Positions 42,000 through 61,213 of a DNA stretch of 64,000 nt are shown piece after piece. This DNA is from an uncultured Pseudomonadales bacterium (GTDB taxonomy: Bacteria; Pseudomonadota; Gammaproteobacteria; Pseudomonadales; Azotimanducaceae), in NCBI GenBank assembly GCA_958296405.1, contig OY282519.1:496001-560000 (forward strand), written 5' to 3'. The notes beneath the pieces are model-generated. The model did not search any database, was not told where the DNA came from, and was given only the letters and a program-made list of their open reading frames with translations. A program made the position numbers and the translations under genes. Numbering within the stretch: the first letter of the stretch is position 1; each line of letters opens with the position of its first letter.

Positions 42000-42194
42000 T
42001 GTGCTCAACCCTCTCGGCACCGCGTCCAACACTCCTCCACGAAGAGCGCCGACGCGGCAGCGTGCTGAAAGTTCCCTCTGACCAAGCAGTTTAGCGGAAA
42101 GCGAACCACCCCACCAAAGCGCGTGAGCCGCACATTCTCGCGTCGGCAGTGGAGGAAACCACCGTGCGTCATGGGCGGACATGGCCGCCACGCC

Positions 42195-57334: not shown

Positions 57335-58318
57335 ATGAGCCACGGTCGGCTGCGCGTCGACCTCGACGCGGTGGCGGACAACTACGCCACGCTCAAGCAC
57401 CGCGCTGCCGGGGATGTCGCGGCGGTGGTGAAGGCCAATGCATACGGTTTGGGGGCGGTGCCGGTGGCGCGGCGGCTGGTGGCGGCAGGCTGCCGGCAAT
57501 TCTTCGTGGCGACCGAGAGCGAGGGCGTGGCGCTGCGCCCGGCGCTGCCGGAGGACGCAGAGATCTTCGTCTTCTCCGGAGAGGCGACAGCACCCGGCTT
57601 GATTGCCGTGGCCAACTTCCCGGAGCAGATCGGCCAGCAGCCGGTGGCGCTGCATGTCGATACGGGCATGCAACGCTTGGGCTTTCCATGGCACACGGTG
57701 CCCAAGGTGGCGAAGGTGAAGCTCCTGATTTCACACTTGGCCTGCGCCGACACCCCCGAGCACCCGCTCAATGCCGAGCAGGTGCGGCGCTTCGAGGCCG
57801 TGGCGGCACACTTTCCCGGCGTTCCCACGAGCCTCGCCAACTCGGCCGGCATCTTGAACGGCGTACCCGGCTTGGGCCGCGCCGGCATTGGCCTCTACGG
57901 CGGCAATCCGTGGTCTCACCGCCCAAATCCGATGCGCCCCGCGGCGACGTTCGAAGGACAGGTGCTCCAAGTGCGCGCGGTGCGCGCCGGCGAGGCGGTG
58001 GGCTATGGCGCTGGGCGCCGCATGGAACGCGACGCGCAAGTGGCGGTGGTGGGCGTCGGCTATGCCGATGGCGTGCAACGCATGTTGTCGAATCGCGGCG
58101 CCGCCGCCTTCAATGGCAAACGGCTGCCCGTCATCGGCCGCGTCTCGATGGACCTCACTCACTTGGACGCCACCGGCAGCGGCTTGGCCAGGGGCGATTG
58201 GGTGGAGTTCTGCGGGGCGCACATCGGCGTGGACGAAATGGCCGCGTGCGCCTTCACCATCGCCTACGAAATCCTTGTCGGCATCGGCAACCGCGTGGAG
58301 CGGCGGTACTTGCCCTAG
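57335..58318 (+). CDS. alr: Alanine racemase
   Basis: 327 residues, slightly short for the family. The PLP lysine is in 'VAAVVKANAYGLGA'; 'DTGMQRLGFPW', 'ANSAGIL', 'RAGIGLYGGNPW', 'AVGYGAGRRM' (catalytic Tyr) and 'IGRVSMDLTHLDATGSG' follow. It makes D-alanine for peptidoglycan. It is complete, but its last ~43 codons are repeated at 60142-60273 downstream. An Lrp-type regulator and alanine dehydrogenase lie 3 kb away, so alanine metabolism genes cluster here. Confidence 0.95.
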   Translation: MSHGRLRVDLDAVADNYATLKHRAAGDVAAVVKANAYGLGAVPVARRLVAAGCRQFFVATESEGVALRPALPEDAEIFVFSGEATAPGLIAVANFPEQIGQQPVALHVDTGMQRLGFPWHTVPKVAKVKLLISHLACADTPEHPLNAEQVRRFEAVAAHFPGVPTSLANSAGILNGVPGLGRAGIGLYGGNPWSHRPNPMRPAATFEGQVLQVRAVRAGEAVGYGAGRRMERDAQVAVVGVGYADGVQRMLSNRGAAAFNGKRLPVIGRVSMDLTHLDATGSGLARGDWVEFCGAHIGVDEMAACAFTIAYEILVGIGNRVERRYLP

Positions 58319-58573
58319 GCCGCTGGCGCGGCTGCCTTCGCCGCCCCGGGACGGCGGCGGCGGCGCACGGCGGCAAGACGCCGTTGCGCTATCATCGATG
58401 GTTCAACGCAACGGCTTGCGTGACACGCATGACAAAGGGGGGGTGGGCAATGGCCGCAGTGAATCGGGATGGCGCGCTGAAGGGGCAGGTGGCGGTGGTC
58501 ACCGGCGCCAGCCGAGGCATTGGCGAGGCGATCGACAAGCGGTTGGCGATGGAAGGCGCCAGCGTCGTGGTCT
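58187..58573. repeat. Left copy of ~385-bp direct repeat (alr 3' end to SDR 5' end)
   Basis: 387 bp, near-identical to 60142-60524 (383 bp). By eye about eight substitutions, one 3-bp and one 1-bp length difference. It covers the last 43 codons of alr, the intergenic region and the first ~41 codons of an SDR. Homology starts sharply at GCCAGGGGCG and stops after CGTGGTCT. Flanks a lower-GC foreign segment. Confidence 0.95.
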
Positions 58574-58605
58574 GGCCTCAACGCAGCCAGGATTTTGAAG
58601 TTTGA
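58450..58605 (+). pseudogene. Truncated SDR N-terminus fused to foreign sequence
   Basis: The frame from ATG 58450 matches the intact SDR at 60401 for 41 codons, through the NAD(P) loop 'VVTGASRGIGEAI', then switches after ASVVV to WPQRSQDFEV and stops. One substitution (IDKRL here, IAKRL in the intact copy) falls in a position that is usually Ala/Lys-flanked in SDRs, consistent with relaxed selection. It lacks the catalytic half and cannot be an active oxidoreductase. Confidence 0.9.
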
Positions 58606-58675
58606 TATTCCTGAGCGATATCTCAATCACGATGACGCACAAGCGGTAGCGGAACAAGTTAGGAGCGAGAAGTAA
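58571..58675 (+). pseudogene. C-terminal tail of a donor amidohydrolase-like gene
   Basis: Read in another frame across the left junction, the sequence codes SGLNAARILKFDIPERYLN followed by a charged end and TAA. 'GxNAARIxxxD' near the C-terminus is typical of the amidohydrolase_2 family. The stop codon overlaps the ATG of the next SDR (TAATG), so in the donor this was the upstream gene of the same operon and the junction cut it inside the coding region. Family call is tentative because only ~34 residues remain. Confidence 0.6.
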
Positions 58676-59514
58676 TGTCTAAAACTGTACTGATCACAGG
58701 ATGTTCGACTGGAATGGGCCGCTTGGCGGGGTTTACGTTTCAGGAAAAAGGCTGGAACGTGGTTGCAACCATGCGACGACCAGAAAACGAAACAGAATTG
58801 AATGCCCTAGAGAATACGTTGGTGCTGGTGTTGGATGTGACTGATCAGTCGAGCATAAACGACGCGATAAGTCAGGCGATCGACAACTTCGGAACGATTG
58901 ATGTACTTGTGAATAACGCAGGCTACGGTGGCCATGCGGCGCTGGAACAATCAAGCGACGAGTCGGTTCGCGCCATGTTTGATACCAACGTTTTTGGCGT
59001 GTTTAACACCACCCGCGCTGTAATGCCCATCCTGAGAAAGCAGGGCGCTGGCGTAGTTATTAATGTGACTTCCATGGCTGGGATGATCGGCATCCCTCTC
59101 GAGACATCTTATTGCGCTTCAAAGTGGGCCGTCGAAGGCTTCACAGAGGCTTTAGCTATGGAGTGTCGTGATCTTGGTATCAAGGTGTGTTCAGTGCTTC
59201 CCGGTGCCTACGCGACTGCGTTCAACGGGAACGTACAGGACAATCTGGAAACGGGTGATACCCAAGTGGTAGAACACGCGCAGAAAATTCGAGCTCACTT
59301 CCGCGCTATCGTCGAGGATCACCACGGGAGCGAACAGACTGCAGACGCCCAAGAGGTAGCTGACCTAATCTATCAGTGCGCGATAGAAGATATGCCGGTG
59401 CATAACCCGTGCGGTAGTGATGCCCAAATGCTGGTTGGACTGTCCCAGTCTCCTGGGCGGCAGGTGTTTTACAACAACTTGACGGGATTACTGCTTCCCG
59501 CACCACCAGCATAA
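58675..59514 (+). CDS. Short-chain dehydrogenase/reductase in foreign segment
   Basis: 279 residues from ATG overlapping the preceding stop. 'VLITGCSTGMGRLAGFTFQE' is the cofactor loop, 'VLVNNAGYGGHAALEQ' and 'VINVTSMAGMIGIPLETSYC' with Y-C-A-S-K the catalytic motifs. It is a classical SDR with a long C-terminus. Codon use and GC (about half, by eye) differ sharply from neighbours, indicating recent transfer. Not related closely to the SDR duplicated around it. Confidence 0.93.
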   Translation: MSKTVLITGCSTGMGRLAGFTFQEKGWNVVATMRRPENETELNALENTLVLVLDVTDQSSINDAISQAIDNFGTIDVLVNNAGYGGHAALEQSSDESVRAMFDTNVFGVFNTTRAVMPILRKQGAGVVINVTSMAGMIGIPLETSYCASKWAVEGFTEALAMECRDLGIKVCSVLPGAYATAFNGNVQDNLETGDTQVVEHAQKIRAHFRAIVEDHHGSEQTADAQEVADLIYQCAIEDMPVHNPCGSDAQMLVGLSQSPGRQVFYNNLTGLLLPAPPA

Positions 59515-59526
59515 GCTCGTCCAAGC

Positions 59527-59628
59527 ATGACGTTTTGGATACCTCATCGGCTAGATGCCGACCGGTTTCGACTTTCAGCCTGGCTCAACGCGAACCTGAT
59601 CGTGATTGATTTGGAGGAAGGTATCTAA
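59527..59628 (+). CDS. 33-codon frame between donor SDR and SRPBCC gene
   Basis: MTFWIPHRLDADRFRLSAWL followed by NANLIVIDLEEGI and TAA. It is in the same frame as the SDR, four codons after its stop, and its own stop overlaps the next ATG (TAATG). It could be a small coupled peptide or the remnant of a longer protein. The GGAGG of the SRPBCC ribosome site lies inside its 3' end. No family recognised. Confidence 0.35.
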   Translation: MTFWIPHRLDADRFRLSAWLNANLIVIDLEEGI

Positions 59629-60107
59629 TGATCAAGTGGATTATTGGAGTCCTGGTCCTCCTGGCGGTAGTGGTAGTTGTTGGCTTGGTCACGCGTAAAT
59701 CAGTGCGTGCTGAGATTCTGATTGAGGCGACGCCTGATGAGGTTTGGGCGGTGATCACTGATCCCTCCTCTTACCCCGACTGGAATCCGATTTTCGTTTC
59801 CTATGAAGGTGTGTTTGCTGAAGGCAGCCAAGTCGCGTTGCAGATGAAAATGGGCGAAGGCGATCCCACACGAGTACAAGTTGAGGTAAAGGACTTCGTA
59901 CCCAGGGAATGGATGCATCAAGGTGGCGGATATCCCCTCATCCTGATCTATGACCACAACTGGTATTTGGAGGCAGTGCCCGAAGGCACGAAAGTAACTC
60001 AGTATGAGTACTACACCGGGGTTTATGTGCTCTTCTGGGATCCCACGGCTGCGCGACTGGCCTACGAACAGGGAAACAAAAACCTCAAGGCGAGATTAGA
60101 AGGCTAG
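59628..60107 (+). CDS. SRPBCC (polyketide cyclase/START-like) protein with N-terminal membrane anchor
   Basis: 159 residues from ATG behind TTGGAGGAAGGTATCTA. A hydrophobic N-terminus ('IIGVLVLLAVVVVVGLVT') anchors a START-like domain: 'RAEILIEATPDEVWAVITDP' then SSYPDWNPIF, the hallmark of SRPBCC proteins, and a C-terminal helix. It likely binds a hydrophobic ligand at the membrane. It belongs to the lower-GC donor segment together with the SDR. Confidence 0.88.
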   Translation: MIKWIIGVLVLLAVVVVVGLVTRKSVRAEILIEATPDEVWAVITDPSSYPDWNPIFVSYEGVFAEGSQVALQMKMGEGDPTRVQVEVKDFVPREWMHQGGGYPLILIYDHNWYLEAVPEGTKVTQYEYYTGVYVLFWDPTAARLAYEQGNKNLKARLEG

Positions 60108-60129
60108 GGTTTTGAAGACGGAGAGAAAG

Positions 60130-60273
60130 ATGGATTACCGAGCCAGGGGCGATTGGGTGGAGCTCTCCGGGGCGCACATCGGCGTGGACGAAATGGCCGC
60201 ATGCGCCTTCACCATCGCCTACGAAATCCTTGTCGGCATCGGCAACCGCGTGGAGCGGCGGTACTTGCCATAG
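60130..60273 (+). pseudogene. Alanine racemase C-terminal fragment with a donor start codon
   Basis: ATG 60130 codes MDYR and then runs in frame into the duplicated alr end (ARGDWVELSGAHIGVDEMAA ... RRYLP) to a TAG, 47 codons in all. GGAGAGAAAG before the ATG is a good ribosome site and probably belonged to the next gene of the donor operon. Compared with the intact alr it has Phe-Cys changed to Leu-Ser. It lacks the PLP lysine and is not a racemase. Confidence 0.85.
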
Positions 60274-60524
60274 GCCGCTGGCACGGCTGCCTTCGCGGCC
60301 CCGGGACGGCGGCGGCGCACGGCGGCAAGACGCCGTTGCGCTATCATCGATGGTTCAACGCAACGGCTTGCGTGACACGCATGACAAAGGGGGGTGGGCA
60401 ATGGCCGCAGTGAATCGGGATGGCGCGCTGAAGGGGCAGGTGGCGGTGGTCACCGGCGCCAGCCGAGGCATTGGCGAGGCGATCGCCAAGCGGTTGGCGA
60501 TGGAAGGCGCCAGCGTCGTGGTCT
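60142..60524. repeat. Right copy of ~385-bp direct repeat
   Basis: 383 bp in direct orientation to 58187-58573. It begins immediately after donor sequence GATTACCGA and ends where the intact SDR continues with CAGCGCGCACC. Differences from the left copy include CCCTAG/CCATAG at the alr stop and a shorter GGC run in the spacer. Both copies keep TATCAT (60342-60347 here), a possible -10 element for the SDR. Confidence 0.95.
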
Positions 60525-61213
60525 CAGCGCGCACCGTGGAAGCGAGCGACCATTTCCTGCCCGGCACCATCAAGCAGTGCGTGGCCGACATCGAGGCAGC
60601 CGGCGGCAGTGCCCTGCCGGTGCGCTGCAATCTGGCGGATCCGGGCGACCGCGAGCGGCTCATCGACGAGACGGAGCGCGCCTTCGGCCCCGTGGACATC
60701 CTAGTCAACAATGCCGCCGTCACTTGGTTCCTGCCAGTTTCGAACTTCACGGAAAAGCGCTATCGCATGATGATGGACGTGCAGGTGTATGCGCCCTTCG
60801 AGCTCACGCAGCGCGTGCTGCCGGGGATGGTGGAACGCGGCCGCGGTTGGATTCTGAACATCTCCTCCCACGCGGCCATCCACCCCGAGGCCAACGCGCC
60901 GGGCGGCCACGGCGGCACCGTGTACGGCATGTGCAAGGCTGCCTTGGAGCGCTTCACCACCGGCTTGGCGCAGGAACTCCACGGCACCGGCGTGGCGGCC
61001 AACGTCATCTCGCCGGGGCTCGTCGCCACGCCTGGCGTGGTGCATCACAAGCTCATCAACGACACGAACAAAGATCGTGTGACGCCGGTGGAACACATGG
61101 CCGAAGCGTGCCTGCGCCTCTGCCACGGCGACCCAGCGCAGATCACCGGCCGCATCGATTATGCGGACCAAGTGATGGCGGAGTTCAAGCTGACGGCTGC
61201 GGAGCTCGTCTAG
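60401..61213 (+). CDS. Short-chain dehydrogenase/reductase (native, intact copy)
   Basis: 270 residues. 'VAVVTGASRGIGEAIAKRLA' cofactor loop, 'VDILVNNAAVTWFLPVSNFT', Ser in 'ILNISSHAAIHPEANAPG' and Y-G-M-C-K. High GC, like the genome. Its first 41 codons are duplicated at 58450. The longer loop before the catalytic Tyr (HPEANAPGGHGG) is unusual for a classical SDR. Substrate unknown. Confidence 0.92.
   Translation: MAAVNRDGALKGQVAVVTGASRGIGEAIAKRLAMEGASVVVSARTVEASDHFLPGTIKQCVADIEAAGGSALPVRCNLADPGDRERLIDETERAFGPVDILVNNAAVTWFLPVSNFTEKRYRMMMDVQVYAPFELTQRVLPGMVERGRGWILNISSHAAIHPEANAPGGHGGTVYGMCKAALERFTTGLAQELHGTGVAANVISPGLVATPGVVHHKLINDTNKDRVTPVEHMAEACLRLCHGDPAQITGRIDYADQVMAEFKLTAAELV

Follow-up and report, generated by a model that had tools for sequence, protein, structure and literature searches.

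A foreign operon fragment between two copies of its target

How can foreign genes enter a gene-dense stretch of a bacterial chromosome beside alr and leave the genes on either side unbroken? Recombinases, or double crossovers within homologous flanks, are the usual explanation for gene gain in bacteria. Here we describe a naturally occurring gain with no transposon in evidence, in a window of 64,000 nucleotides (contig OY282519.1, positions 496,001 to 560,000) from an uncultured Pseudomonadales bacterium of the Azotimanducaceae. Its genome is termed G000, G008 is that of a sister species sharing the inserted segment, and other G and L codes denote compared relatives.

The insert (58574–60141, 1568 bp, with one joint base assignable to either side; all features given here lie on the forward strand) has a GC content of 51.7%, compared to 68.9% and 65.2% in its 5-kb flanks; across 254 kb, only 0.3% of windows of 1568 bp have so low a value. 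It is single copy in G000 and is flanked by direct repeats at 58187–58573 (387 bp) and 60142–60524 (383 bp) that are 97.2% identical. This bears out the preliminary description of a low-GC segment with an SDR and an SRPBCC gene between direct copies of the alr–SDR junction; the 'about ten differences' between copies mentioned there are seven substitutions and two indels, of 3 bp and 1 bp. In a scan of 254 kb at E 1e-8 for other direct repeats of at least 40 bp, at least 82% identity and 300 bp to 20 kb spacing, only a single 130-bp, 83% identical pair was found; chance matching therefore does not account for the layout.

The duplicated target is host chromosomal sequence. Its left copy, single in the compared stretch of G008, comprises the alr 3′ end, an intergenic stretch and codons 1–41 of the native SDR. 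The alanine racemase gene alr (57335–58318) is intact and ends inside this copy (TIGR00492, 199 bits with a cut-off of 168; Pfam Ala_racemase_N and Ala_racemase_C), and the native SDR frame that begins in it (58450–58605) is truncated, its 41 native codons running into a short out-of-frame tail in the insert. The right copy, delimited by repeat comparison, holds a redundant alr 3′ remnant (60142–60273; 43 codons and stop, with three substitutions found in this copy only) and leads into the intact native SDR (60401–61213; PF00106; dN 0.0016 relative to G008).

Between the copies lies an eroded operon piece, whose left end falls within an amidohydrolase gene and whose right end follows the fourth codon of a cytochrome P450 gene. 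The amidohydrolase tail (58574–58675; 33 codons and a stop that overlaps the SDR start) lacks a Pfam match on its own, and its frame is homologous to the tail of a PF04909 gene in L030. It is followed by an intact foreign SDR (58675–59514; 279 aa; PF00106, 174 bits), a deletion scar (59581–59588) where ~590 bp including the operon's middle gene have been lost, an intact SRPBCC (Polyketide_cyc2) gene (59628–60107; 159 aa; PF10604, 57.5 bits) and the four P450 codons (60130–60141) ended by the right junction. The middle gene is intact in G008 (146 aa) and has no match anywhere in G000 at E 0.001; the P450 gene is complete in G218 (407 aa, PF00067) and internally deleted in G008. The source operon would thus have had the order amidohydrolase – SDR – small protein – SRPBCC – P450.

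The foreign composition and flanking repeats of several hundred bp, which could pass for element ends, might bring to mind a transposon, IS, integron cassette, ICE or phage. We consider such an origin very improbable and reject it, since the repeats are host alr–SDR sequence that is single in relatives and there is no recombinase: the only complete frames are the SDR and SRPBCC genes, and the other bases match operon genes of other genomes. The lack of transposase and integrase noted earlier hence stands; as to IS ends, none of 11 inverted-repeat pairs (at least 20 nt) has arms at both insert ends. Moreover, the insert ends are not the same in G000 and G008.

Empty sites in relatives and a second insertion in a sister species

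We compared the alr–SDR locus in the eight genus genomes other than G000. Six were informative (G008, G002, G003, G004, G005 and G007), and all six have alr and SDR adjoining at a single junction free of the insert; for G001 and G006, which were uninformative, all matches were short and scattered. The gain of foreign genes at a locus where relatives have no insert, as first proposed, is therefore supported. G008, despite its empty alr–SDR site, holds the same segment ~6.5 kb away, with 98.9% and 98.4% identity to the insert, compared to 93–95% for the chromosome near it; in 500-base windows around both sites the two genomes are 86–97% identical, and no stretch matches the similarity of the insert. 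The G008 segment too sits within a direct duplication of the local chromosome, partly deleted, whose pieces match 66235–66360 and parts of 66548–68639 (extended-window numbering), with ADH intact at its left and NUP intact at its right.

Across ~254 kb there are 17 indels of 300 bp or more (aligned blocks below 85% identity or 150 bases being dropped), and only these two insert sites have a duplicated single-copy target. Two other indels end in 113–135 bp repeats that are 80–83% identical and were rejected as duplicated single-copy targets, one being a member of a dispersed family and the other a pair that is unmatched across the compared 260 kb of G008; three further rows, in which the compared stretches trivially overlapped themselves, were left out.

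The preliminary description had allowed for an assembly chimera. G008 is indeed a metagenome assembly, but an assembly or strain-mixture artefact would have to place the same segment at different sites of two separate single-contig genomes, each time in a duplication, and to generate copies diverged by substitutions and indels. It would also have to keep both frames intact and SDR and SRPBCC enriched in synonymous change (8 of the 17 coding changes in the insert are nonsynonymous, compared to 77% expected; p 0.008). These data contradict that caveat and make it the least probable explanation.

Relatedness of the target copies and age of the insert

Within each genome the two target copies are closer to each other than to those of the other species. 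In G000, 12 site patterns group copy with copy, compared to 5 and 2 for the alternatives (370 sites), the 12 being differences from G008 shared by both copies; in G008 the corresponding values are 69, compared to 9 and 12 (633 sites). Between the two genomes, dS is 0.02–0.05 for the insert and 0.09–0.20 for six neighbouring genes, and the insert is therefore younger than the species split.

Both results bear on an alternative in which the operon sat at the joint of an ancestral tandem duplication spanning 10 kb or more, which arose before the split and from which each species then deleted a different part. This would account for the nearby sites, the direct duplication in both genomes and the differing deletion ends. 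However, with copies that group within genomes and an insert of lower dS than its neighbours, it would need long gene conversion and a later interspecies exchange of the insert. One ancestral 10-kb duplication is thus disfavoured, and we regard it as improbable.

Route of gain

In both G000 and G008 the insert lies between direct copies of the homologous target, the layout of a single-crossover (Campbell-type) integration. The best explanation, to which we would give an even chance, is that a circular or circularised molecule integrated by a single crossover and brought in the insert, which then decayed by deletion. The operon piece would have arrived on a molecule that was circular, or made so by ligation of its ends, and that also bore a local chromosomal stretch; a RecA-type single crossover at this stretch would have left a direct copy of the target on each side of the operon. 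Because such a crossover duplicates the target, the left-hand alr and the right-hand native SDR would both stay intact, which would explain how the DNA landed in a gene-dense stretch beside alr with neither neighbour broken. The sister species would have acquired the same operon ~6.5 kb away through the same kind of event. The circle, its entry by a single crossover and the agent that delivered the DNA are all inferred. No free operon copy, circle or plasmid backbone was found, and among the 5000 plasmid records listed nothing exceeded 60% identity, with a best plasmid protein match of 53%. An experimental parallel is the E. coli conjugation described in PMC3240628, where a PCR product indicative of duplication was obtained from 56 of 60 clones and 14 sequenced clones had duplications of 109–950 bp, which the authors attribute to recircularisation followed by a single crossover.

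Integration of a circle carrying a slightly divergent alr–SDR segment was also one of two readings offered earlier, and our analyses retain the single crossover as the best fit. The site patterns lend no support to a target copy from G008 or its near kin, given the 12 shared differences from G008 against 5 and 2; the incoming alr–SDR segment may have come from a closer, unsampled strain. As the copy pairs look native to their own genomes, no mosaic can be seen from one foreign homologous segment on a carrier common to both. This counts against circle integration, as do the lack, around both sites, of any stretch as similar between G000 and G008 as the insert, and G218, with a third operon fragment that has no flanking duplication. 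The right junction in G000 shares ~1 bp, which also fits end joining; the left would be scorable only with the insert's own upstream base.

End joining is central to a different route, in which a linear foreign fragment is captured by non-homologous repair, independently in each species. Ku and LigD could join the fragment between two sister chromosomes broken at unequal positions, or template switching at a replication fork could lead into the fragment and then back upstream; either way, the copy–insert–copy order would arise in one step. The machinery is at hand, with Ku (143 bits) in both G000 and G008 and matches in only one of 14 control genomes, and with LigD phosphoesterase and ligase domains adjoining Ku in G000 (LigD_N, 143 bits). 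NHEJ repair with DNA insertion has been reported from Streptomyces (PMC5869714), and target copies native to each genome would be consistent with this route, as would the 0–4 bp homology at joints scorable by eye. The latter is nevertheless weak evidence, because the joints now seen may stem from later deletions. Moreover, one operon would have to be captured twice, independently and ~6.5 kb apart, a proximity expected by chance in ~0.35% of cases in ~3.8 Mb genomes, and both times with a duplication, when none of the 15 other large indels has a duplicated single-copy target. Linear capture is hence possible but, in our judgement, doubtful.

Slightly more tentative still is a reading in which the operon piece would be a mobile cassette, recombinase-free and guided by homology, that moves between related bacteria on circles with alr-to-NUP DNA. 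It would always re-enter the same 10-kb region because the circles include the alr-to-NUP piece, duplicate its target, thereby sparing genes such as alr, and shed all but SDR and SRPBCC.

The distribution of the operon extends beyond the two sister species. At E 1e-30 the insert DNA is matched in nine of 206 family genomes, namely G000 and G008 (98–99%), G218 (91% over 320 bases) and six genomes with 70–76% identity. Among the best 80 of 116 relatives in a contig scan, the foreign SDR is 99% identical to that of G008 and then 85–86% to others over its full length, with 90% over a partial stretch in L035, and no near-identical donor emerged.

Comparison with known systems

The pattern matches the published 'insertion with long target duplication' of Helicobacter pylori (Nobusato, Uchiyama, Ohashi and Kobayashi, 2000, as cited in PMC1643837, PMC3031569, PMC3154945 and PMC4978471). 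As there, comparison of two related genomes reveals an insert with long direct target repeats at its ends, and here too the orthologous site is empty, the long repeats are single at the empty site and there is no transposase. According to the citing papers, the H. pylori type is frequently, though not necessarily, tied to restriction-modification genes; these are absent from our insert, a catabolic-type operon piece with only the amidohydrolase tail, SDR, SRPBCC and P450 start. Also unlike that type as so described, the present case is from Pseudomonadales and has the same insert at two nearby sites in sister species. With the G000/G008 pair one can ask two things: for genes other than restriction-modification genes, how often long target duplication is the route of gain that survives; and which of Ku/LigD and single crossover accounts for it.

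The E. coli integrations of recircularised DNA likewise show, as described in PMC3240628, partial target duplication next to the inserted DNA, but in a laboratory cross with a marked plasmid, whereas for our locus the molecule and its circularity are deduced. Homology-facilitated illegitimate recombination, as outlined in the same report, also gains foreign DNA via one homologous anchor, but predicts insertion with deletion, in contrast to the target duplication seen here. In Arabidopsis, many transposed genes described in PMC2869330 lie between direct repeats with homology to the target site of a sister species, and circle insertion was proposed; that transposition is eukaryotic and intragenomic, whereas ours is a horizontal gain in bacteria.

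Decay of the redundant DNA

The later trimming of the insert can be read base by base. The redundant DNA, comprising the copy ends, amidohydrolase, middle gene and P450, would have decayed via deletions with little homology at their joints, while selection would have retained SDR and SRPBCC. No sigma-70-like promoter was found in 58150–60700, and hence we do not claim promoter capture. The preliminary description had pointed to an Asp in the truncated native SDR where the intact one has Ala. The difference is real, base 58535 being A in the left copy and C in the intact SDR. Comparison with G008, G002, G003 and G005, the genomes in the alignment used for polarity once the G004 and G007 rows were left out, shows Asp to be derived.

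Insertion between direct copies of the alr–SDR junction

The junction between the alanine racemase gene (alr) and the native SDR gene occurs twice in direct orientation in this genome (G000), at 58187-58573 and 60142-60524 of the window, and the two copies are separated by 1568 bases (the insert, 58574-60141). The copies are 97.2% identical and the insert has a GC content of 51.7%, compared to 68.9% and 65.2% in the 5-kb flanks, in agreement with the lower-GC segment between direct copies that the preliminary description had reported; the "about ten differences" it had counted between them by eye come, when measured, to seven substitutions, one 3-bp indel and one 1-bp indel. Intact alr lies at the left and the intact native SDR gene at the right; their partial counterparts comprise 41 native codons (SDR, left) and 43 codons plus the stop (alr, right). 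The insert is single-copy in the G000 genome. Comparison with eight other genus members (G001–G008), as also proposed earlier, revealed an empty, single junction in all six informative genomes: in the sister species G008 it is continuous, with 58573 and 60141 mapping to overlapping positions, and in G002, G003, G004, G005 and G007 the alr and SDR matches are ~12-88 bases apart without the insert. G001 (71% complete) and G006 (64% complete) yielded only short scattered matches and are outside this count.

At its left end the insert has the 3'-terminal 33 codons of an amidohydrolase gene, followed by an intact SDR gene, an intact Polyketide_cyc2 (SRPBCC) gene and the first four codons of a P450 gene. 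This order is supported by that in other genomes: amidohydrolase, SDR (85% identical) and SRPBCC in succession at locus L030; SDR followed by a homologue of the small middle gene between SDR and SRPBCC at locus L031; and the 3' part of SRPBCC followed by a complete P450 gene in G218, from a different genus of the family (90-91% identical over the common part). No flanking duplication was found for the operon fragment in G218, where the operon is broken another way (G218:C2:3722660-3724268): a short peptide, by eye resembling the C-terminus of the dehydrogenase that L030 and L031 have upstream of their amidohydrolase, precedes a truncated SRPBCC gene and the complete P450 gene. Among the matches listed, the titles of the seven nearest records are of metagenome-assembled Pseudomonadales or Gammaproteobacteria, several of them probably sponge-derived, judging by the isolate names.

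A second insertion in the sister species

G008, assembled as a single contig of 3,746,347 bases, holds the same segment at 1743723-1741626, in unchanged orientation and ~6.5 kb beyond its own empty alr–SDR junction. Two aligned stretches of the inserts, 949 and 562 bases long, are 98.9% and 98.4% identical, respectively, compared to 93-95% for the chromosome near the insert (also computed in 500-base windows). The G008 copy retains an intact middle gene (146 aa, no Pfam match) and ~125 further bases of P450, which is internally deleted, and is missing the first 66 bases of the G000 insert; a search of G000 at E 0.001 gave no match to the middle gene or the extra P450 bases.

The G008 segment is also inside a direct duplication of the local chromosome. 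In extended-window coordinates, which continue the numbering past the window, its right side carries the equivalents of 66235-66360 and, after that, of 66576 onward, and its left side, after a normal ADH–NUP region, pieces equal to 66548-66700, 66893-67032, 67206-67328, 67725-67777 and 68599-68639. Together, the left pieces make up an internally deleted copy of the duplicated stretch, which spans at least 2.4 kb; six matching pairs within G008 are 95-100% identical. ADH at the left and NUP (350 aa) at the right are intact, the same outcome as for alr and SDR in G000.

Age, decay and selection

Among 370 comparable sites in G000, 12 unite the two copies against G008, five unite copy 1 (left) with G008 and two unite copy 2 (right) with G008; among 633 sites in G008, 69 unite the copies against G000, with nine and 12 in the other groupings and three three-way. 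Because the copies within each genome group together, both duplications look younger than the species split, although on small counts and unless gene conversion homogenised the copies. Since dS between species is lower in the insert (0.021 for SDR, 0.047 for SRPBCC) than in six neighbouring genes (0.090-0.196), the insert, too, is younger than the split, again on small counts. Five substitutions in G000 are exclusive to copy 2 (three within the alr remnant, two just past it) and four events to copy 1 (two intergenic, one within the truncated SDR and one a synonymous change close to the alr stop), a pattern slightly in favour of each copy having decayed in its own redundant half, the events being few and the intergenic bases assignable either way.

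SDR and SRPBCC are intact in both G000 and G008, while the amidohydrolase, P450 and, in G000, middle genes were lost by deletion. The two retained genes show nine changes at 307 synonymous sites and eight at 1007 nonsynonymous sites, with a neutral probability of 0.008 for eight or fewer nonsynonymous changes; because the two genes and the two lineages are pooled in this test, it is silent on where or when selection acted.

Possible origin of the insertions

Two sites 6.5 kb apart have a chance of ~0.35% under random placement (twice 6.5 kb over 3746 kb), and this proximity, with duplication at both, calls for a common cause. The carrier could be a circular or circularised molecule bearing the operon together with local DNA, which would enter the chromosome by one crossover; a plasmid, transforming DNA and a conjugating fragment are all candidates for it. 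PMC3240628 describes the same outcome in E. coli given linear DNA homologous at one end: the duplication-diagnostic PCR product was obtained from 56 of 60 clones, 109-950 bp were duplicated in 14 sequenced clones, and its authors inferred recircularisation and a single crossover. The main rival, capture of the operon fragment by non-homologous joining, has in its favour the presence of Ku in both genomes (G000:C1:1913901-1914437, L150; G008:C1:290887-291423) against only one of 14 control genomes, the LigD phosphoesterase-ligase gene adjoining Ku on the opposite strand in G000, and the NHEJ repair with DNA insertion reported for Streptomyces (PMC5869714). Joint homology, scored by eye, is 0-4 bp where scorable, with one G008 break ambiguous, a right G008 joint that could be longer and a left G000 joint without a known parent for the insert side; since these joints may be the products of later deletions, they favour neither explanation over the other. 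A single crossover by a putative circular carrier is the simplest common cause of both insertions.

The architecture is that of the H. pylori "insertion with long target duplication" (Nobusato et al. 2000, as described in PMC1643837, PMC3031569, PMC3154945 and PMC4978471), a type tied there to restriction-modification genes. Transposed genes of Arabidopsis, for which a circle model is proposed, have a similar layout (PMC2869330). The G000 locus belongs to a published kind; the parallel case in a sister species is unusual.

Other indels in the compared chromosome

In ~254 kb of aligned G000–G008 chromosome, 17 indels are 300 bp or longer, and only the two insert sites have a target duplicated in one genome yet single in the other. 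Two further indels, with end repeats of 113-135 bp (80-83% identical), do not count as duplicated single-copy targets. One is a ~3.8-kb G000-only segment outside the window (extended window 73210-76983; G000 569210-572983), with a 130-bp direct repeat pair (83%) near its ends, and neither repeat matched the G008 sequence used for comparison (260 kb). The other is ~11 kb extra in G008 (window 42138-42172 versus G008 ~1777676-1766612), with copies of a dispersed repeat (113-118 bp, 80%) at its ends; this repeat recurs at a further G000–G008 indel (G000 743099-743272). Within this stretch, G008 ~1771997-1768527 is a ~3.5-kb array of ~348-bp direct repeats, 83-87% identical.
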